37,057 nucleotides of DNA from the NCBI GenBank assembly GCA_026415695.1, contig JAOAGP010000085.1, positions 1-37,057 of the forward strand, in the 5' to 3' direction. The DNA is from Thermodesulfovibrionales bacterium (GTDB lineage Bacteria > Nitrospirota > Thermodesulfovibrionia > Thermodesulfovibrionales > Dissulfurispiraceae). The notes beneath the pieces were generated by a model, which worked only from the letters and a program-made list of their open reading frames with translations, searched no databases and was not told where the DNA came from. Of the stretch, positions 25,562-35,798 are shown one piece after another. Positions within the stretch are counted from its first letter, which is position 1. Each line of letters begins with the position of its first letter. A program made the position numbers and the translations under genes.

Positions 25562-27004
25562 ATGAATGATAGGATTAAGAGATTAGACCCGTTTAGATTA
25601 GAGGTGCCAAGGGATTATAAACCCGGCATGAATACAAGCGGGATTATCTATGTAGATGAAGGGTTAGAGTCAATATTAGAGAAGGAATCCATAGAGCAGG
25701 TAGCAAATGTAACAACCCTACCCGGTATAGTCGGACAGTCCATAGCCATGTCAGACATACATACCGGATACGGTTTTCCGATTGGTGGTGTTGCAGGATT
25801 TGATGTTGATGAGGGAATCATTTCACCGGGTGGTGTTGGGTATGATATTAACTGTGGGATTAGACTATTGAAGACTCCTCTTATGAAAAAAGACATAAAG
25901 GACAAGATTGAAGACCTCATCATAAGGCTCTACCATGAGATTCCAACAGGTGTGGGTTCTAAAAGCAGGCTAAAGTTAAGCCAAAAGGATGAAGAGAAGG
26001 TTCTTGTAGAAGGTGCAAGATGGGCTGTAAAAAAGGGATTTGGTGATCTGTCTGATTTACAATACACAGAATCAGAAGGGTGTTTAGAAGGCGTAGACCC
26101 ATCAAGGATATCAAAAAAGGCATATGATAGAGGACACAACCAACTTGGCACACTTGGATCAGGCAACCATTTCTTAGAGATACAAGAGATAGTTGAGGTA
26201 TATGAACCAAAGATTGCCGATGTTTTTGGTCTTTTTGAAGGACAGATCACTGTGATGATACACACAGGGTCAAGAGGATTAGGGCATCAGATATGCACAG
26301 ATTTTATAGAGGTAATGCGAAGGGCAAGCAAGAAATACAACATCCCGCTACCTGACAGAGAACTCGTTTCTGCCCCATTTAAATCACAAGAAGGACAAGA
26401 CTACTTTAACGCCATGAAGGCAGCGGCAAACTTTGCTTGGGCAAACAGACAGATTATCACCCATTGGACAAGACAGGTCTTTTATGAGACCTTGAGATTA
26501 CCACCTTCAAGGCTTCACTTGGACATCCTTTTTGATGTTGCACATAACATAGCAAAGGTTGAAAGGCACATCGTTGATGGCAAAAAGAGACAACTCATCA
26601 TCCATAGAAAAGGTGCTACAAGGGCGTTTAGTCCACACCATCCTGAACTACCAGAAAGATACAAAGAAACTGGGCAACCTGTGATTATCCCCGGTGACAT
26701 GGGCAGGGCATCCTATGTGCTTGTTGGCACAGAGCAGGCAATGAGGGATACCTTTGGTTCAACCTGTCATGGTGCAGGAAGGAGGCTTTCAAGGAATCAG
26801 GCTATCAGGGATGCAAAAGGGCGCTCTATTGCAACCGAATTATCACAAAGGGGTGTGATAGTAATGGCAAGTGGGAAGGAGACCCTTGCTGAAGAGATGC
26901 CAGATGCCTATAAAGATGTCTCACAGGTGGTTAATGTGGTTGACAATGCAAATATCTCAAAGAAGGTGGTAAAGATGAGACCGCTTGGAGTAATAAAGGG
27001 GTAA
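25562..27004 (+). CDS. rtcB: RNA-splicing ligase RtcB
   Basis: The 480-residue protein is close in length to the archaeal enzyme. Metal and active-site residues match at nearly identical positions: C98 (DINCGIRLL), H203 (GSGNHFLE), H234 (MIHTGSRG), H328 (DVAHNIAK) and the guanylylated H403 (STCHGAGRR). It joins 2',3'-cyclic phosphate or 3'-phosphate RNA ends to 5'-OH ends using GTP and Mn2+, in RNA repair or tRNA splicing. Its stop overlaps the start of mqnA (TAATG), so the two are coupled. A possible archease partner is not in the window, but the 2H phosphodiesterase ThpR, also acting on cyclic phosphate ends, is encoded about 6 kb away. Confidence 0.97.
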   Translation: MNDRIKRLDPFRLEVPRDYKPGMNTSGIIYVDEGLESILEKESIEQVANVTTLPGIVGQSIAMSDIHTGYGFPIGGVAGFDVDEGIISPGGVGYDINCGIRLLKTPLMKKDIKDKIEDLIIRLYHEIPTGVGSKSRLKLSQKDEEKVLVEGARWAVKKGFGDLSDLQYTESEGCLEGVDPSRISKKAYDRGHNQLGTLGSGNHFLEIQEIVEVYEPKIADVFGLFEGQITVMIHTGSRGLGHQICTDFIEVMRRASKKYNIPLPDRELVSAPFKSQEGQDYFNAMKAAANFAWANRQIITHWTRQVFYETLRLPPSRLHLDILFDVAHNIAKVERHIVDGKKRQLIIHRKGATRAFSPHHPELPERYKETGQPVIIPGDMGRASYVLVGTEQAMRDTFGSTCHGAGRRLSRNQAIRDAKGRSIATELSQRGVIVMASGKETLAEEMPDAYKDVSQVVNVVDNANISKKVVKMRPLGVIKG

Positions 27005-29175: not shown

Positions 29176-31071
29176 TTGAAGGTAAAACTAACAACTGGGG
29201 AAGAGATAACAACAAAAAGCAACGAGGATATATACAGGGCACTTAAAAGAGAGGGCATATACCTTACGGCATCTTGTGGGGGCAGGGGGATATGTGGTAA
29301 GTGCAAGATTAAGATCGTTGATGGAAATTATAAGGCAACATCATCAGGTGCCCTAACAAAACAAGAGAGAGATGAGGGGGTTGTTCTTGCTTGTAAAACC
29401 TATCCAAAAAGTGATGTTATGGTTGAGATACCGAGGTTATCCATTTTAACAGTAGGTGATAAGATTGCCATTTCTAAGATGCAAGACCTCAAAGAATATC
29501 TCTCAACATACGGTGTAGAGATAAAGCCAATGGTAAGAAGGGTTGCCCTTGAGATATCACCACCATCATTAGATGACAAAAGGGGTGATTTAGATAGATT
29601 AACAGAGAGACTCAAAGAATTAAACCTTCTACCGATGAGATTTTCACATGGTTTTGTGTCATCAATGGCGGATGTAATGAGGTTATCAAATTGGAGTTTT
29701 GACATAAACTACATATCCACACCTGACAATATAAGAGAAGCAATCTACCTAACATCAAAGGAGTTTTGTGACAGGGAGTTTGGTGTGGCAGTTGATATAG
29801 GCACAACAACAGTGGTGGTCTATTTGGTCAATCTTAGTAATGGCAAGATTGTTGATACAGGTTCAATATACAATTCACAGATTAAGCATGGCGATGATGT
29901 TATCACAAGGATTATCTACAGCACTGAAGGAGACGGATTAGAAGAATTAAGAAGTGCTGTGATTGAGGATGTCAACAACTTAATAACTGTCATTAGAGAA
30001 CGGCACAAGATAAAGAGATGTGAGATTAACTCTGTGGTGATATCTGGTAACACTACCATGTCGCATATCTTCTGGGGACTCAATCCTGAATCAATAAGGC
30101 TTGAGCCATACATACCAACCGTTAATAAATTCCCTGTATGGAGGGCAAATAACGCAAGGCTTGCAACTAACAGCCAAGCACCTGTTTATACGATGCCATG
30201 TGTTGCAAGTTATGTAGGGGGAGACATCGTATCTGGTGTGATTGCCTCAAAGATACATAAAAGCGAAGATGTATGTCTGTTTATGGACATTGGAACTAAT
30301 GGAGAGATTGTGATTGGCAATAAGGACTGGTTAGTAACGGCTGCATGCTCTGCCGGACCGTGTTTTGAAGGAGGGGGACTCACATCAGGTATGCGGGCAG
30401 TCAAAGGGGCTATTGAGTCTGTTTCGTTTGATAAAGACACATTAGAGCCAACCTTAAATGTCATAGGTGACAGTGAACCTCTTGGTATCTGTGGTTCTGG
30501 AATAATTGATGCATTGTCAGGGATGTTTCTTAATGGCATTATTGATCAAAAAGGCAAGTTTATCAAGGATAAAACCAGCAGGATTAGAAATGGTGAAAAT
30601 GGCTTGGAGTATGTCTTACACTATGACAAAAAAGGTGGTAAAGACCTTGTCATAACAGAGCCTGATATTGACAACATAATAAGGTCAAAGGCAGCGATAT
30701 ATGCTGGGATTACCACATTGCTAAATGAGGTTGGTCTCAACATTGATGCCATCAAAAAGGTTTATATTGCAGGGGGTTTTGGAAACTATCTAAACATACA
30801 AAAGGCTATCACTATTGGAATGTTGCCCGACATTGAGGCATCAAGATATGAGTTTATCGGCAACACCTCAATCACTGGTGCGTGTCTTGCACTTTTATCA
30901 TTTGACCTTTTAAAAGAGGCAGAGGAGATATCTTCAAGGATGACATACATAGAACTCTCCACGATTAGAAACTTTATGGATGAGTATGTTTCTGCCCTTT
31001 TCCTTCCACATACCGACATCAAAAGATTCAAAACCGTACAAGGTGCTATGCTTCATGATGCAAAGTGTTGA
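29176..31071 (+). CDS. RACo-like corrinoid-activating protein (2Fe-2S ferredoxin plus ASKHA ATPase, DUF4445)
   Basis: The 631-residue protein has an N-terminal plant-type 2Fe-2S domain with C34, C40, C43 and C73 (CGGRGICGKCK), a linker/middle domain, and an ASKHA-type ATPase domain with AVDIGTTTVVVYLV, DIGTNGEIVIG and AGGFGNYLN. This is the layout of RACo/RamA proteins that reductively reactivate Co(II) corrinoid proteins at ATP cost. No corrinoid protein or methyltransferase gene is adjacent, so the client is unknown. The TTG start at 29176 follows an AAAGGAGA ribosome site. A short CCTTAAG/CTTAAGG hairpin overlaps the end of ugd upstream. Confidence 0.88.
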   Translation: MKVKLTTGEEITTKSNEDIYRALKREGIYLTASCGGRGICGKCKIKIVDGNYKATSSGALTKQERDEGVVLACKTYPKSDVMVEIPRLSILTVGDKIAISKMQDLKEYLSTYGVEIKPMVRRVALEISPPSLDDKRGDLDRLTERLKELNLLPMRFSHGFVSSMADVMRLSNWSFDINYISTPDNIREAIYLTSKEFCDREFGVAVDIGTTTVVVYLVNLSNGKIVDTGSIYNSQIKHGDDVITRIIYSTEGDGLEELRSAVIEDVNNLITVIRERHKIKRCEINSVVISGNTTMSHIFWGLNPESIRLEPYIPTVNKFPVWRANNARLATNSQAPVYTMPCVASYVGGDIVSGVIASKIHKSEDVCLFMDIGTNGEIVIGNKDWLVTAACSAGPCFEGGGLTSGMRAVKGAIESVSFDKDTLEPTLNVIGDSEPLGICGSGIIDALSGMFLNGIIDQKGKFIKDKTSRIRNGENGLEYVLHYDKKGGKDLVITEPDIDNIIRSKAAIYAGITTLLNEVGLNIDAIKKVYIAGGFGNYLNIQKAITIGMLPDIEASRYEFIGNTSITGACLALLSFDLLKEAEEISSRMTYIELSTIRNFMDEYVSALFLPHTDIKRFKTVQGAMLHDAKC

Positions 31072-31172: not shown

Positions 31173-31190
31173 ATTATAGGAGGTGTGGTT

Positions 31191-32378
31191 ATGAACCGTA
31201 GGGAATTTTTAGGTGCAGGTGCTGTATTAACTGTAGCAAGTATGATGCCGTTGGATTTACAGGCAAAGGATGATAAGGACAACACAAAACCAGTTATCAA
31301 GGCATACAAGGAAATAGGCAAAACAGGTATTAAGATGTCAGATATTTCCTTTGGTGCAGGTAGGGCTCCTGCTGCATCTTTAATCTTAAGGGCAATAGAT
31401 GCAGGAATCAACTACTTTGACACAGCCCCTGATTACGGAGCCTCTGAAAAAAACATCGGAGAGGCTATGCCAAGGATAAAGAGAGACAAGATATACATAG
31501 CCACCAAATTCTGCACACCAAACCCATATCCATCACACCTACCATTAGGCTCAAAAAGGGCAGATTTCATTTCATCAGTAGAACAAAGCCTTTCAAGGAT
31601 GAAGACAGACTATATTGACTTTATCTTTGTGCATGCCATCGGAGAGATGAACAGGGATTATGAAAAGGAAAAGAAGAGATTATTTGACCCCGAGATGCTA
31701 TCAGCATTTGAAAAACTAAAGAAGGATGGTAAGGTAAGATTCCTTGCTGTCTCATCACACGGGCCTAATAACACAGAACAACTACTAATGGATGCAGTAA
31801 AATCAGGCAAATACGATATGATTATGCCGTCTTTCAACTTCATGAAGTTTCCAAAGATGATGGATGTTATCAAAGAGGCATACAAAAACAAGGTAGGGGT
31901 TGTTGCTATGAAGACCCTTGCTGGAGCAAAGGACTCGGGTATCTCTGATTACCCACAGGCTGCATTTAGATGGGTGCTCAAACACGAAGAGGTATCGGGG
32001 CTCGTTGTATCATTTAGGACTACAGCGGATTTAGAAAACTATCTACCTGCTTCAGGAACCAAATATAGCAAAAGAGACGAACACATACTTAAGACCTATG
32101 CGAAGATGTTTTCAAAAGACTACTGCAGAACGGGGTGTAATGATTGTAGTGGTGTGTGTAAAAACGGGGTTGACATCGCCACAGTATTAAGATACAGGAT
32201 GTATTTCAAGGACTACTCAATGGAAAAGGAGTCTATGAAGTCATATGCATCACTTGATAACAACGCCTCATCTTGTCTAACTTGTGAAGAACCAACATGC
32301 AACAGGGTTTGTCCATATGGATTACCTATAAAGGATTTACTCGTTGATGCCCACACATCTTTAACCTTCTTTGCGTAG
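31191..32378 (+). CDS. Tat-exported aldo/keto reductase with C-terminal ferredoxin-like domain
   Basis: The 395-residue protein starts with a twin-arginine signal (NRREFLGAGAVLTVASMMP, cleavage near QA). An aldo/keto reductase barrel follows, with catalytic D77, Y82 (FDTAPDYG), K106 (IATKF) and a His in FIFVHAIGE. The tail has two cysteine clusters, CRTGCNDCSGVC and CLTCEEPTCNRVCP, fitting one or two 4Fe-4S centres. Start ATG 31191 is seven bases after GGAGG (31179-31183); an in-frame GTG at 31185 overlaps the site. Fe-S-tailed AKRs are known, but a Tat signal implies folding with cofactor before export. It heads a tightly coupled four-gene operon with a DUF362 protein and a polyferredoxin. 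The substrate is unknown. Confidence 0.88.
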   Translation: MNRREFLGAGAVLTVASMMPLDLQAKDDKDNTKPVIKAYKEIGKTGIKMSDISFGAGRAPAASLILRAIDAGINYFDTAPDYGASEKNIGEAMPRIKRDKIYIATKFCTPNPYPSHLPLGSKRADFISSVEQSLSRMKTDYIDFIFVHAIGEMNRDYEKEKKRLFDPEMLSAFEKLKKDGKVRFLAVSSHGPNNTEQLLMDAVKSGKYDMIMPSFNFMKFPKMMDVIKEAYKNKVGVVAMKTLAGAKDSGISDYPQAAFRWVLKHEEVSGLVVSFRTTADLENYLPASGTKYSKRDEHILKTYAKMFSKDYCRTGCNDCSGVCKNGVDIATVLRYRMYFKDYSMEKESMKSYASLDNNASSCLTCEEPTCNRVCPYGLPIKDLLVDAHTSLTFFA

Positions 32379-33317
32379 ATGCTAAAAGAGATACTGATAA
32401 AGTCTCTGTTGATACTGCTTTTACCCTGTATCGTTCTTGCATTGTATCTTGAAGGGCAGAGGTATGACCCTGCCCTTTTGGACTTTAAGTCAGCACCCAA
32501 AAAATCACAGTCTGAACAGATTTTAGAGAAGACCCCATTATCTGATACCTCAAAAGCCATAGATGGATTTAACATTATAGGCAAACCAAGGGAGTTTACA
32601 AAAGATAACCTCTATGAGCATGTAAACGGTCATGCAGAGTATTTCATCGGGATGGGATTTAAAAAACTCACAGTAAGTGAATATGCCGCAAACGGAAATC
32701 AACCCGAGATTCAGGTTGAGGTCTTTGACATGGGTATGCCCTTACAGGCGTTTGGTGTATTGATGGATGCGGTAGGCTCAAAGGCGACATCAGTGAGTGT
32801 TGGTTCAATGGGCTTTAAGACACAAAATGCTGTCCTTTTTATAAAAGGACAATACTATGTCAGGGTAATACCTTATAAAAAAGAGGCAAACATCATAGCA
32901 TTTGCAAAAGGGTTTGAAAGACTACTACCTTCATCAAAAACAGACCCCTTTGGTGTCTTTGGTAAACTCCCTAAAATCGGTAAGGTCATCTCAACAAAAT
33001 ATGTAAAAGAAGGATACAGGGGGCTTGATTTTTTAAACAATGTCATTGAAAGACAGTACGAATATGAAGGTGGTGTTATACACCTTGCCCTGTTGGTTGC
33101 AAAGGAGGAAGAGATAAAAACAGTGGTCAGAAGTGCATTGGAGTTTTTGGGTAAATCTGGGTCAGAATATCAGAGGATACAAACCCCAAAGGGTGAAGTA
33201 TTTAAGATACATGACAAATACGAGGGGGACTGGGTCATGATACATTCAAAAGATGCAGTGATATGTCTTTTTGGCAATATCAATGATGATGTCATAAAGA
33301 AGGTGTCAGATGTCTAA
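32379..33317 (+). CDS. DUF6599-like membrane-anchored protein
   Basis: The 312-residue protein has an N-terminal hydrophobic anchor or signal (residues 7-24) and then a soluble domain likely outside the cytoplasm. It carries NLYEHVNGHAEYFIGMGFKK and VEVFDMGMPLQAFGVL, which resemble DUF6599 as I recall that family. No cysteines for Fe-S binding are evident. The start codon directly follows the upstream stop (TAG-ATG), and its last eight bases overlap the DUF362 gene, so translation is coupled. Function is unknown; context suggests a partner of the exported redox proteins. Confidence 0.7.
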   Translation: MLKEILIKSLLILLLPCIVLALYLEGQRYDPALLDFKSAPKKSQSEQILEKTPLSDTSKAIDGFNIIGKPREFTKDNLYEHVNGHAEYFIGMGFKKLTVSEYAANGNQPEIQVEVFDMGMPLQAFGVLMDAVGSKATSVSVGSMGFKTQNAVLFIKGQYYVRVIPYKKEANIIAFAKGFERLLPSSKTDPFGVFGKLPKIGKVISTKYVKEGYRGLDFLNNVIERQYEYEGGVIHLALLVAKEEEIKTVVRSALEFLGKSGSEYQRIQTPKGEVFKIHDKYEGDWVMIHSKDAVICLFGNINDDVIKKVSDV

Positions 33318-34281
33318 TACAAAACTGATAAATCGCAGGGATTTTATAAAAAAATCTGGGCTTGTTGCATCTCTTGCTCTTGGTGCAGGTGTGTGGGGTT
33401 ATGTCTTTTATAGCGATGAACCAGTTAAGAAGACTAAAAAGCATATAATGACTGTCAAGGACTTTAGGGTTGAACCTATTAAGACATACCCAGACATTGC
33501 AGTAGCACAAGGTAGGGATGTTGAAGCCATCACAAAAAAGGTGGTAGATAGATTAGGTGGTATGAGTAGATTTGTAAAACCCGGTGAAAGGGTCTTGATA
33601 AAACCTAATGCCTCGTGGGATAGACAACCTGAACTTGCCGCAAATACAAACCCATTAGTCATATCAGCCATAGTCAAGATGTGCCTTGAGGCAAAGGCAA
33701 AGGAGGTATGGGTTACAGATGTAACCGTCAACGATGCCCAAAGGTCATTTGCCCGTTCAGGCATTGAGCAGGCAGTATTGAAGGCAGGTGGGATTATCAA
33801 GTTTCCATCCAGTAATGATTTCGTTGAGACCGATCTAAAAGGTGATGCACTTAAGGTCTGGCCTGTCTGCAGGTTTATTCACGATATAGACAAGGTCATA
33901 AATGTGCCAGTTGTAAAGCATCATTCTCTAAGCAAATGCACTATCGCAATGAAAAACCTATATGGACTGATTGGCGGACAGAGGAATCTTCTGCATCAAG
34001 ATATATACACATCCATTGCTGATTTAGCAACCGCAATTAGAACTACCCTTACAGTCATTGATGCTACTCGTGTCTTGATGAGAAACGGACCTACAGGTGG
34101 TGATATATCCGATGTCTCTGAACATCATACTGTTTTAGCAAGCATTGATACAGTTGCAGCAGAGACATATGCATTGAGATTCTTGGATCTAAAGGTAGAG
34201 GATGTGCCTGCTATTAGCATTGCTGAAAAGAGAGGCGTAGGTTCATCAAGATTAAACGACCTACACATAGCTGAGGTATGA
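33310..34281 (+). CDS. Tat-exported DUF362 domain protein
   Basis: The 323-residue protein starts with a textbook twin-arginine signal (NRRDFIKKSGLVASLALGAG). The DUF362 domain follows, with RVLIKPNASWDRQPELAANT, VWVTDVTVNDAQRSF, INVPVVKHHSLSKCTIAMKN and a closing region around VLASIDTVAAETYALRFL. DUF362 proteins are often found with Fe-S proteins but their reaction is not established. It overlaps its upstream neighbour by eight bases and the polyferredoxin gene by four (ATGA). Unlike some relatives it has no ferredoxin domain of its own; that part may be supplied by the neighbours. Confidence 0.88.
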   Translation: MSNTKLINRRDFIKKSGLVASLALGAGVWGYVFYSDEPVKKTKKHIMTVKDFRVEPIKTYPDIAVAQGRDVEAITKKVVDRLGGMSRFVKPGERVLIKPNASWDRQPELAANTNPLVISAIVKMCLEAKAKEVWVTDVTVNDAQRSFARSGIEQAVLKAGGIIKFPSSNDFVETDLKGDALKVWPVCRFIHDIDKVINVPVVKHHSLSKCTIAMKNLYGLIGGQRNLLHQDIYTSIADLATAIRTTLTVIDATRVLMRNGPTGGDISDVSEHHTVLASIDTVAAETYALRFLDLKVEDVPAISIAEKRGVGSSRLNDLHIAEV

Positions 34282-35798
34282 AGAAACTATTATCCTATAG
34301 AAACATACGAAGGTTGTATGCAGGGTTTTTCTTGCTTTTGTTCTTTTTGCTGATTTTCTTGACAAATTTTAGGTTTATGAGAGGATTTGAGGTAGCCCTC
34401 TTTTTGCAGTTAGACCCCTTGAATGCAATTGCTACATTCCTCACAAGCTGGACTATTTATAAAGGCTTAATCATAGCAGTTGTGATAATAATCAGCACGC
34501 TTATACTTGGAAGATATTTCTGCTCATGGATGTGTCCGTTGGGCATCATAAATCAGATTACAGGAAGCATACTCCAAAAGATTAAGCCAGTGGACGCATA
34601 CAAGATGAACAGTTTTAGGACGGCTTACAGGATAAAATACTATGTCCTGACATTCTTGTTGGTCTTGGCAATAGGTGGAAGTTTACAAATAGGGCTATTT
34701 GACCCAATTGCACTTATAACTCGTTCCTTTGCAGTGTCTGTTTTTCCGGGAGTGAATTTCTCAACCGGTGCCTTATATCTAAACCAGCCCGTGTTTTATG
34801 GTGGTGTCTTGGTAACAGTGGTGTTTTTGATAATCCTTTTTGCAAATAGATACATCACAAGGTATTGGTGTAGAACACTATGTCCTTTAGGTGCGATGTT
34901 AGGGCTTTTGTCATTTAGTCCTATTTTTGCCATTAGAAGGGATGTGGATAGATGTAACAACTGTCAAAGGTGTCTAAAAAACTGTCATGGTGCATGCGAT
35001 CCTCACTCCACTCTTAAGACATCTGAATGTATGGTTTGTATGAATTGCATTGAGGATTGCCCCGAAGGTGCATTGAGGTATGGGCTACCTGCTCATAAAT
35101 CTGCACAAGTAACCAGTTTAGATATAAACAGAAGAAGACTCGTTGAATCCGCTGTCTTTGGGCTTATTGCCTTTCCAATGATAAGGTCATCAGTCAACGC
35201 CGAAAACATCCCTCAACCATCAGTAATCAGACCTCCGGGTTCATTAGCTGAAAAGGACTTTTTAAGGCGATGTCTCAAGTGTGGACAGTGTATGAAGATA
35301 TGCCCAACCAATGCTATTCAGCCTGCACTTTTGGAATCAGGCTTTGAGGGACTTTGGACACCAATCATCATCAATTCAATAGGATACTGTGAATACAACT
35401 GTGTTCTGTGTGGGCAGGTATGTCCAACAGGTGCTATTATGCCTATAACTGTTGATAAGAAGATTGGCAGTGGTGGTGAAAAACCCATCAAGATTGGCAC
35501 CGCATTTTATGACTACGGACGATGCCTTCCATGGGCAATGCACACAGACTGTATTGTCTGTGAAGAGGTATGCCCAACATCACCGAAGGCTATCTGGTTT
35601 AAACAGGTGGATGTTAAGATGAGGGATGGAAGTATCAAGAAGTTCAAACTCCCATATGTTGATGTCAATCTGTGTATCGGTTGTGGTATTTGTGAGAATA
35701 AATGTCCTGTAAAAGACAGACCCGCAATCAGGGTTACATCAGTAGGAGAGACACGGTCAAATAAAAACAAAATGGTCTTGAAAGAAAATAAAATATGA
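34278..35798 (+). CDS. NapH-NapG-like fusion: membrane polyferredoxin with eight cysteine clusters
   Basis: The 506-residue protein joins two parts. Residues 1-275 resemble NapH/MauN: four membrane helices, CSWMCPLG and CRTLCPLG after helices 2 and 4, then two 4Fe-4S motifs (CNNCQRCLKNCHGAC, CMVCMNCIEDCP). Residues 283-506 resemble NapG/MauM. They begin with an internal twin-arginine-like stretch (NRRRLVESAVFGLIAF, R285-R287), then RPPGSLAEKDFLRRCLKCGQ and clusters CLKCGQCMKICP, CEYNCVLCGQVCP, CIVCEEVCP and CIGCGICENKCP. In Nap systems NapH passes electrons from quinol to periplasmic NapG. A fusion could carry electrons across the membrane to the Tat-exported reductase encoded upstream. Cofactor count and topology are inferred. 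Confidence 0.88.
   Translation: MKKLLSYRNIRRLYAGFFLLLFFLLIFLTNFRFMRGFEVALFLQLDPLNAIATFLTSWTIYKGLIIAVVIIISTLILGRYFCSWMCPLGIINQITGSILQKIKPVDAYKMNSFRTAYRIKYYVLTFLLVLAIGGSLQIGLFDPIALITRSFAVSVFPGVNFSTGALYLNQPVFYGGVLVTVVFLIILFANRYITRYWCRTLCPLGAMLGLLSFSPIFAIRRDVDRCNNCQRCLKNCHGACDPHSTLKTSECMVCMNCIEDCPEGALRYGLPAHKSAQVTSLDINRRRLVESAVFGLIAFPMIRSSVNAENIPQPSVIRPPGSLAEKDFLRRCLKCGQCMKICPTNAIQPALLESGFEGLWTPIIINSIGYCEYNCVLCGQVCPTGAIMPITVDKKIGSGGEKPIKIGTAFYDYGRCLPWAMHTDCIVCEEVCPTSPKAIWFKQVDVKMRDGSIKKFKLPYVDVNLCIGCGICENKCPVKDRPAIRVTSVGETRSNKNKMVLKENKI

Follow-up and report, generated by a model that had tools for sequence, protein, structure and literature searches.

A conserved operon of Tat-exported redox proteins with a DUF362 protein that probably carries the nickel-pincer nucleotide

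Three described systems come closest to the locus reported here: the LarA superfamily of racemases and epimerases (PF09861), which work with the nickel-pincer nucleotide (NPN); the quinol-oxidising ferredoxin subunits NapH and NapG of periplasmic nitrate reductase; and aldo/keto reductases (AKRs, PF00248) with a C-terminal ferredoxin domain. In LarA, His174, Lys184 and His200 bind NPN or act together with it. DUF362 and LarA_N are both placed in Pfam clan CL0471 (PMC11770544). The operon described here lies in a window of 37,057 nucleotides (contig JAOAGP010000085.1 of a Thermodesulfovibrionales bacterium). Its genes look like the components of a redox system that is exported from the cytosol; the central DUF362 protein has, in a predicted model, the lactate-racemase fold and probably carries the rare NPN cofactor.

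Gene order and conservation

Four genes lie on the forward strand at 31191-35798, encoding an AKR, a DUF6599 protein, a DUF362 protein and a NapH-NapG fusion (NapHG). The coordinates and the contact or overlap at every junction, as given in the initial annotation, were confirmed: the AKR stop codon TAG is immediately followed by ATG (32376/32379), the DUF6599 and DUF362 genes overlap by 8 nt (33310-33317), and the DUF362 and NapHG genes share an ATGA overlap (34278-34281). The three twin-arginine motifs noted earlier were also found, at R3R4 of the AKR, R9R10 of DUF362 and R285-R287 of NapHG. A survey of gene neighbourhoods brought up the four families together elsewhere: of 80 related loci from Nitrospirota, Magnetococcales and other groups, 51 carry all four genes in the order seen here (junctions across the 80 loci were counted from start codons picked by script). 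Because the four genes occur together and in order in these loci, the arrangement is genuinely conserved as a module and not a product of chance. The earlier proposal is supported to this extent: the genes form a unit that is inherited together, depends on Tat, is rich in Fe-S clusters and includes a membrane part of the quinol type. The outcome named beforehand as refuting it, that the families do not co-occur elsewhere, was looked for and did not arise.

Residue conservation was read from alignments that contained the window and 79 of the 80 loci (A3), 52 rows (A4), 62 rows (A5) or 55 rows (A6); incomplete or doubtful genes were excluded, and locus L065 was removed by hand from A4 and A6. 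When neighbouring genes were clustered across the loci, no fifth gene recurred as widely as the four do. Some larB, larC and larE (larBCE) genes sat in small neighbour clusters, where they were recognised through a later direct search. Further candidates were rejected. A corrinoid activator encoded upstream (29176-31071) showed no recurrence in the related loci queried; in some Nitrospirota the DUF6599 and DUF362 genes are separated by inserted genes that resemble restriction-modification and other cargo, and these were set aside; and a literature search found no link that would identify the operon as a sulfur-disproportionation cluster.

The reductase, the DUF6599 protein and the NapHG fusion

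The first gene (31191-32378, forward strand; PF00248, 112.9 bits against a cut-off of 24) starts with ATG, with AGGAGG at 31178-31183, and encodes a predicted Tat-exported AKR whose C-terminal Fe-S domain is expected to hold two [4Fe-4S] clusters. Across 56 rows, the twin arginines R3/R4, the tetrad D77, Y82, K106 and H148 (Asp-Tyr-Lys-His, presumably catalytic, as in the family), the eight C-terminal cysteines and C108 are all invariant. The eight cysteines lie within C312-C374 (32124-32312, forward strand), where the Fer4_9 match is below cut-off. In sequence alignments the nucleotide loop appears degenerate, with a C-terminal loop that lacks the Gly and Asn of other AKRs.

The second gene (32379-33317, forward strand) matches PF20244 (101.1 bits, cut-off 27), and its product has an N-terminal membrane helix at residues 5-23 followed, in a predicted model (pLDDT 90), by two putative Mog1/PsbP-like domains. 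For this model VIA gave Z scores of 11.2 to 1vr8, 10.0 to 4esq and about 7 for PsbP/Mog1; Foldseek gave no match at E<=1e-3, and a PDB sequence search with the DUF6599 profile found nothing.

The last gene (34278-35798, forward strand) encodes a membrane part with two CxxxCP motifs (C82/C86 and C198/C202, a motif of NapH/NapG) together with six four-Cys sets of the [4Fe-4S] type. An internal twin-arginine motif, R285-R287 (35130-35138, forward strand), lies after the NapH membrane part and ahead of the NapG half, and its R286 is invariant in 63 rows. The NCBIfam equivalog models for NapG (92.1 against a cut-off of 269) and NapH (84.1 against 234) match below their cut-offs.

The initial annotation had read these parts as a quinol-linked periplasmic complex in which the AKR would be fed by the polyferredoxin in place of cytosolic NADPH. 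On such a model DUF362 would be a structural or maturation partner without NPN. The conserved tetrad and eight cysteines, the NapHG architecture and the co-occurrence of the four genes in 51 of the 80 loci agree with such a system. However, DUF362-NapHG is found without the AKR in 11 of the 80 loci, some of which are truncated where the contig stops, and also in another group of loci, and the reading leaves the LarA fold and the larBCE linkage described below unexplained; we consider it unlikely. Since DUF362-NapHG occurs without the reductase elsewhere, the module is probably not centred on that enzyme.

The DUF362 protein and its link to NPN synthesis

What the earlier reading overlooked is the core of the module, an exported DUF362 protein with a LarA fold and a link to NPN synthesis. 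Its gene (33310-34281, forward strand) matches PF04015 (157.1 bits, cut-off 24), and the twin arginines R9/R10 are invariant in 80 rows. The predicted model (pLDDT 92.3) has the fold of the N-domain of the lactate racemase LarA, and the protein is a candidate NPN carrier. All 19 Foldseek matches in the PDB at E<=1e-3 are LarA-type, and 207 residues of the model (within 67-296) align to 6d6z with a Z of 17.9 and an rmsd of 2.9, the best unrelated row reaching a Z of 5.4. The link came from structure comparison only: hhalign detected no sequence-profile link between DUF362 and LarA, a PDB sequence search with the DUF362 profile had no LarA among its matches, and Pfam gives only DUF362 for the protein, with no match to PF09861 (Lar_N).

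A His-(9)-Lys-(13)-His series (H205, K215 and H229; 33922-33996, forward strand) is invariant in 80 rows and is kept in 11 of 11 sequences compared separately, which include a second Tat group and a ferredoxin-type DUF362 protein. By their spacing, which is consistent with the aligned ranges, these residues are candidates for LarA His174, Lys184 and His200. R105 (33622-33624, forward strand), likewise invariant in 80 rows, is tentatively placed as the counterpart of the phosphate residue Arg75 of LarA, with an uncertain register. H205 fits His174, and no invariant His lies near the position of His108, the second catalytic His of LarA, in the 80 rows. The C-terminal substrate domain of LarA is absent, the match stopping at residue 296 of the 323 in the model and at residue 265 of about 400 in the matched chain.

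In seven loci the operon contains or adjoins the genes for NPN synthesis, larB, larC and larE. In L099, L111, L112 and L127 the order larC-larB-larE follows NapHG on the same strand; in L124 and L131 larE follows NapHG and larB and larC face it; and in the gammaproteobacterial L139 larC follows NapHG, and matches to larE and larB come farther along. In L111 and L124 these names hold at curated cut-offs; in L139 this applies to larC only. The seven loci sit on three separate branches of the tree, which forces at least three changes, and PF09861 (LarA) is absent from their genomes. Genes for larBCE adjoining NapHG were absent from all 31 loci that are labelled Nitrospirota and have 1.2 kb of sequence downstream, from 13 of 19 Magnetococcales loci and from two of three others.

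The window's own genome encodes LarB (268.9 bits), LarC (440.4 bits) and LarE (246 bits), and has no PF09861 match. Co-occurrence was tabulated from genome lists transcribed by hand and is confounded by clade: among the 50 relatives covered for all three of LarC, LarA and DUF362 (of 60 relatives, 10 outside the LarC survey were left uncounted), 43 have LarC and no LarA, and DUF362 is present in 43 of these 43; LarC is found in 30 of 32 module genomes, the other two being without it; and five of 181 genomes with DUF362 are without LarC, as is Bacteroides ihuae. In Nitrospirota, 69 of 245 genomes with LarC have no DUF362; therefore NPN must serve other proteins in them, or LarC must have further functions.

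A DUF362 protein with NPN might instead catalyse racemisation or epimerisation in the periplasm, a redox-neutral reaction, with NapHG serving the AKR or keeping NPN active. The larBCE linkage would fit this, as would the nature of LarA enzymes, which are racemases and epimerases (PMC11770544), but the single catalytic His is a misfit with two-base racemisation and the DUF362-NapHG pair recurs without the AKR, and we regard redox-neutral action as improbable. A further reading, in which larBCE in Magnetococcales point to a nickel-pincer protein other than DUF362 and DUF362 binds a different ligand with the same fold, would suit the unlinked Nitrospirota loci and the missing profile-level link to LarA, but not the lack of LarA in the seven lar-linked genomes, the three lar arrangements on three branches or the invariant Lys/His series, and is very improbable.

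A proposed periplasmic system and its known counterparts

On balance, we favour the view that the four genes specify an oxidoreductase system of the periplasm, with a DUF362-family NPN protein at its centre. LarB, LarE and LarC would make NPN in the cytosol, where it would be loaded into DUF362, with K215 as the tether, H229 as a nickel ligand and H205 as the acid/base. The folded holoprotein would be exported by Tat and remain tethered via its N-terminal helix. In the periplasm, NPN would accept or donate a hydride, with a hydroxy or oxo compound as the putative substrate, and the NapHG fusion would link this chemistry to the quinone pool via its six [4Fe-4S] sets; we know of no NPN precedent for the hydride-to-Fe-S step. 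The Fe-S AKR may work on that substrate or on the one that follows, and the DUF6599 protein, anchored by its helix, may keep the soluble parts at the membrane. By analogy with Nap, reduction by quinol is somewhat favoured as the direction.

If true, this would answer a published question, that of the NPN-using protein where LarA is absent. DUF362 is a concrete candidate for the NPN user in bacteria that make NPN without LarA, its LarA fold is predicted, residues to test are named, and a ready expression system exists in the E. coli Duet system of PMC11796402, a source that gives a mass gain of about 450 Da for NPN bound to LarA. Within the literature searched, it would be without precedent both as an NPN enzyme located beyond the cytosol and as one coupled to an electron-transport chain. 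More tentatively, the DUF362 family may be the missing non-LarA NPN user, with NPN here replacing NAD(P)H as an extracytosolic hydride carrier, in an organometallic enzyme that is exported by Tat and connected to the quinone pool.

With the LarA superfamily, the DUF362 protein shares the predicted N-domain fold and a His/Lys/His series of near-matching spacing, and its operon is linked to larBCE in the seven loci; in contrast to LarA, it belongs to another Pfam family, is without one catalytic His and the C-terminal domain, and is Tat-exported and paired with NapHG. The nearest NCBIfam model is that of the cyanobacterial DUF362 proteins (Npun_F2552 family, NF052623), at 77.6 bits, below the cut-off of 500. 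With NapH and NapG of periplasmic nitrate reductase, the fusion has in common two CxxxCP motifs, NapH- and NapG-type Fe-S sets and a Tat motif on the NapG half, but it is one fused gene, scores below the NapH and NapG cut-offs, and has DUF362 and not NapA as its partner. The operon AKR shares the barrel family, the catalytic tetrad and eight C-terminal cysteines with AKRs that have a C-terminal ferredoxin domain, whereas its Tat export, its degenerate nucleotide loop and an additional invariant cysteine, C108, next to the catalytic lysine set it apart.

Organization and conservation of the four-gene operon

The operon occupies positions 31191-35798 of the window on the + strand and encodes an aldo/keto reductase, a DUF6599 protein, a DUF362 protein and a NapHG fusion. 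The first three matched their Pfam families above cut-off, Pfam assigned several 4Fe-4S domains to the last protein, and the NapH and NapG models matched the fusion, both below their own cut-offs. The successive junctions are a stop codon immediately followed by a start codon, an overlap of 8 nt and an overlap at ATGA. Twin-arginine motifs lie at residues 3, 9 and 285 of the reductase, DUF362 and the fusion, respectively. The contiguous or overlapping genes with three such motifs described in the initial annotation were borne out. The position of the motif at residue 285 is that expected of an internal Tat signal, which would move the NapG half across the membrane. Directly upstream lies a RACo/AcsV-type corrinoid activator (29176-31071), which did not recur beside the module in the other loci queried. 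An RtcB-family protein is encoded at 25562-27004; its best match is an intein-containing model, yet there is no intein here.

Genome contigs were scanned with a DUF362 alignment, and the best 80 of 122 loci were kept. By record title, 43 of these are Nitrospirota-labelled, 30 are Magnetococcales and 7 are others (Gammaproteobacteria, Nitrospinia, Zixibacteriota and one labelled Deltaproteobacteria). The four families do occur together elsewhere, a check that the initial annotation had proposed: the complete set was present in 51 of the 80 loci, in every one in the window's order. Partial sets comprised DUF362-NapHG only (11), loci without NapHG (8) or without the reductase (7), and DUF362 alone (3), many of them reflecting contig ends that cut the locus. 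At the three junctions, gaps of 30 nt or less were found in 43/59, 50/66 and 51/69 cases. The four-gene module is real.

Among 295 Nitrospirota genomes, DUF6599 was found in 28, at 30 places, and a reductase gene adjoins it at 28 of these; seven of the 28 (L033-L039, related loci in other genomes) hold a divergent pair of Tat reductase and DUF6599 (~33% and 26% identity) and have neither DUF362 nor NapHG. In four loci of related Nitrospirota genomes (L045, L046, L049, L051), DUF6599 and DUF362 are separated by unrelated cargo (methyltransferase/restriction-type and repeat proteins), a pattern resembling an insertion hot spot. In five loci of Magnetobacteriaceae-type genomes (L088, L090, L095, L096, L101), a small exported protein of ~150 residues directly 5' of DUF362 replaces the reductase and DUF6599.

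Reductase, DUF6599 and the NapHG partner

The reductase retains Asp77, Tyr82, Lys106 and His148, together with eight cysteines for two predicted [4Fe-4S] clusters and Cys108. In alignments, its C-terminal nucleotide loop lacks the Gly and Asn present in other reductases, and NADPH use by the exported enzyme is therefore doubtful. The Zymomonas glucose-fructose oxidoreductase is exported with a tightly bound nucleotide, and by analogy the reductase could possibly be exported in the same way. DUF6599 has a membrane helix and two domains resembling the Mog1/PsbP group at moderate Z, and this modelled fold suggests a scaffold.

NapHG contains two CxxxCP motifs and six four-cysteine sets, the layout known from NapH plus NapG. 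In a second Tat DUF362 group (~300 residues), a NapH/NapG-like gene lies directly 3' in loci L178 and L179 and farther away in L181; this assignment comes from a scan of the gene for L178 and from a similar start for L179 and L181. No reductase gene was recognised nearby in the stretches read at these three loci. Hence, the core of the system is likely to be DUF362 together with NapHG. Members of this second group, which have a NapH/NapG-like gene of their own, are common in the phylum Nitrospirota. Another locus, L147 (G000:C83:34000-53999), holds several molybdopterin oxidoreductase genes, two of them with an in-frame TGA and perhaps encoding selenoproteins.

DUF362 and the LarA fold

The AlphaFold2 model of DUF362 (pLDDT 92.3) gave 19 structure matches at E<=1e-3, all LarA-type, and VIA-align matched it to malate racemase 6d6z with Z 17.9 over 207 residues, the first unrelated row having Z 5.4. 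According to PMC11770544, DUF362 belongs to the same Pfam clan as the LarA N-domain, and LarA, the lactate racemase using the nickel-pincer nucleotide (NPN), holds NPN via Lys184, His200 and Arg75 and uses His108 and His174. The series H205-(9)-K215-(13)-H229 of DUF362 mirrors His174-(9)-Lys184-(15)-His200 of LarA; the offsets in 6d6z numbering are 34, 34 and 32, close to the 33 and 31 at the ends of the aligned range. This register is derived from the spacing together with the aligned ranges rather than from residue-level superposition. These three residues were invariant across 80 aligned DUF362 rows, and kept in a set of 11 sequences that includes the second Tat-exported group, the tandem DUF362 pair found in another Nitrospirota family and, from the window genome itself, a ferredoxin-type DUF362. 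Arg105 may be the counterpart of Arg75, less surely than the His/Lys/His series, and a counterpart of His108 is absent from DUF362.

NPN synthesis genes, proposed function and known systems

LarB, LarC and LarE, the products of the NPN synthesis genes, were found above cut-off in the window genome, and a genome search found no LarA. LarC is present in 30 of the 32 genomes with the module or its DUF362, and LarA is absent from 29 of them. Across the 295 Nitrospirota genomes, LarC occurs in 176 of the 181 with DUF362 vs 69 of the 114 without (Fisher 1.6e-16, a value inflated by the common descent of both genes among relatives); the 69 LarC-positive genomes without DUF362 and the 5 with DUF362 and no LarC count against a simple rule. 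Of 50 relatives examined for LarC, LarA and DUF362, 43 had LarC without LarA, and all 43 had DUF362. The 14 control genomes include two with DUF362 and LarC but no LarA (Synechococcus elongatus, Haloferax volcanii), one with DUF362 but no LarC (Bacteroides ihuae) and two in which LarC is accompanied by neither DUF362 nor LarA (Corynebacterium glutamicum, Methanocaldococcus jannaschii).

When the window genome's LarB, LarC and LarE were searched against 186 loci, minus the source loci of the query genes, lar genes appeared in seven module loci, and LarA is absent from all seven genomes. NapHG is followed by larC, larB and larE, all on its strand, in L099, L111, L112 and L127; by larE, with larB and larC facing it, in L124 and L131; and by larC, with larE and larB matches further on, in L139 (a gammaproteobacterium). 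NCBIfam models matched above cut-off all three lar proteins of L111 and of L124, and LarC of L139. Counting only loci with 1.2 kb downstream of NapHG, linkage was seen in 6/19 Magnetococcales, 1/3 other and 0/31 Nitrospirota-labelled loci. The seven fall on three branches of the DUF362 tree, where well-supported forks force at least 3 changes; one ancestral gain with losses is a possible account. A congener of the window's species has larB at a distance of ~3 kb from a Tat DUF362 of the second type.

NPN synthesis is cytosolic; thus, a protein carrying NPN outside must leave folded, and Tat exports folded proteins. In the mechanism that we propose, DUF362 would be loaded with NPN, then exported and anchored. 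Hydride would be exchanged between its bound NPN and a substrate with a hydroxy or oxo group, and NapHG would couple this chemistry to the quinone pool.

The module's parts are known families, and their combination was found in no paper of the open-licence literature searched. That literature gave no match for DUF6599, for DUF362 with twin-arginine or for nickel-pincer with periplasm. Matches to the string DUF362 include papers where it is only part of DUF3623, one where DUF362 serves as an outgroup, one on nested Fe-S motifs and one that mentions it with carbohydrate-binding modules. DUF362 differs from LarA proper in having no PF09861 match, no pair of catalytic histidines and no C-terminal substrate domain, and is therefore not filed as LarA. 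PMC11796402 takes the presence of larBCE in the absence of larA to imply an NPN protein yet to be identified, and it is on this published question that the DUF362 finding bears.
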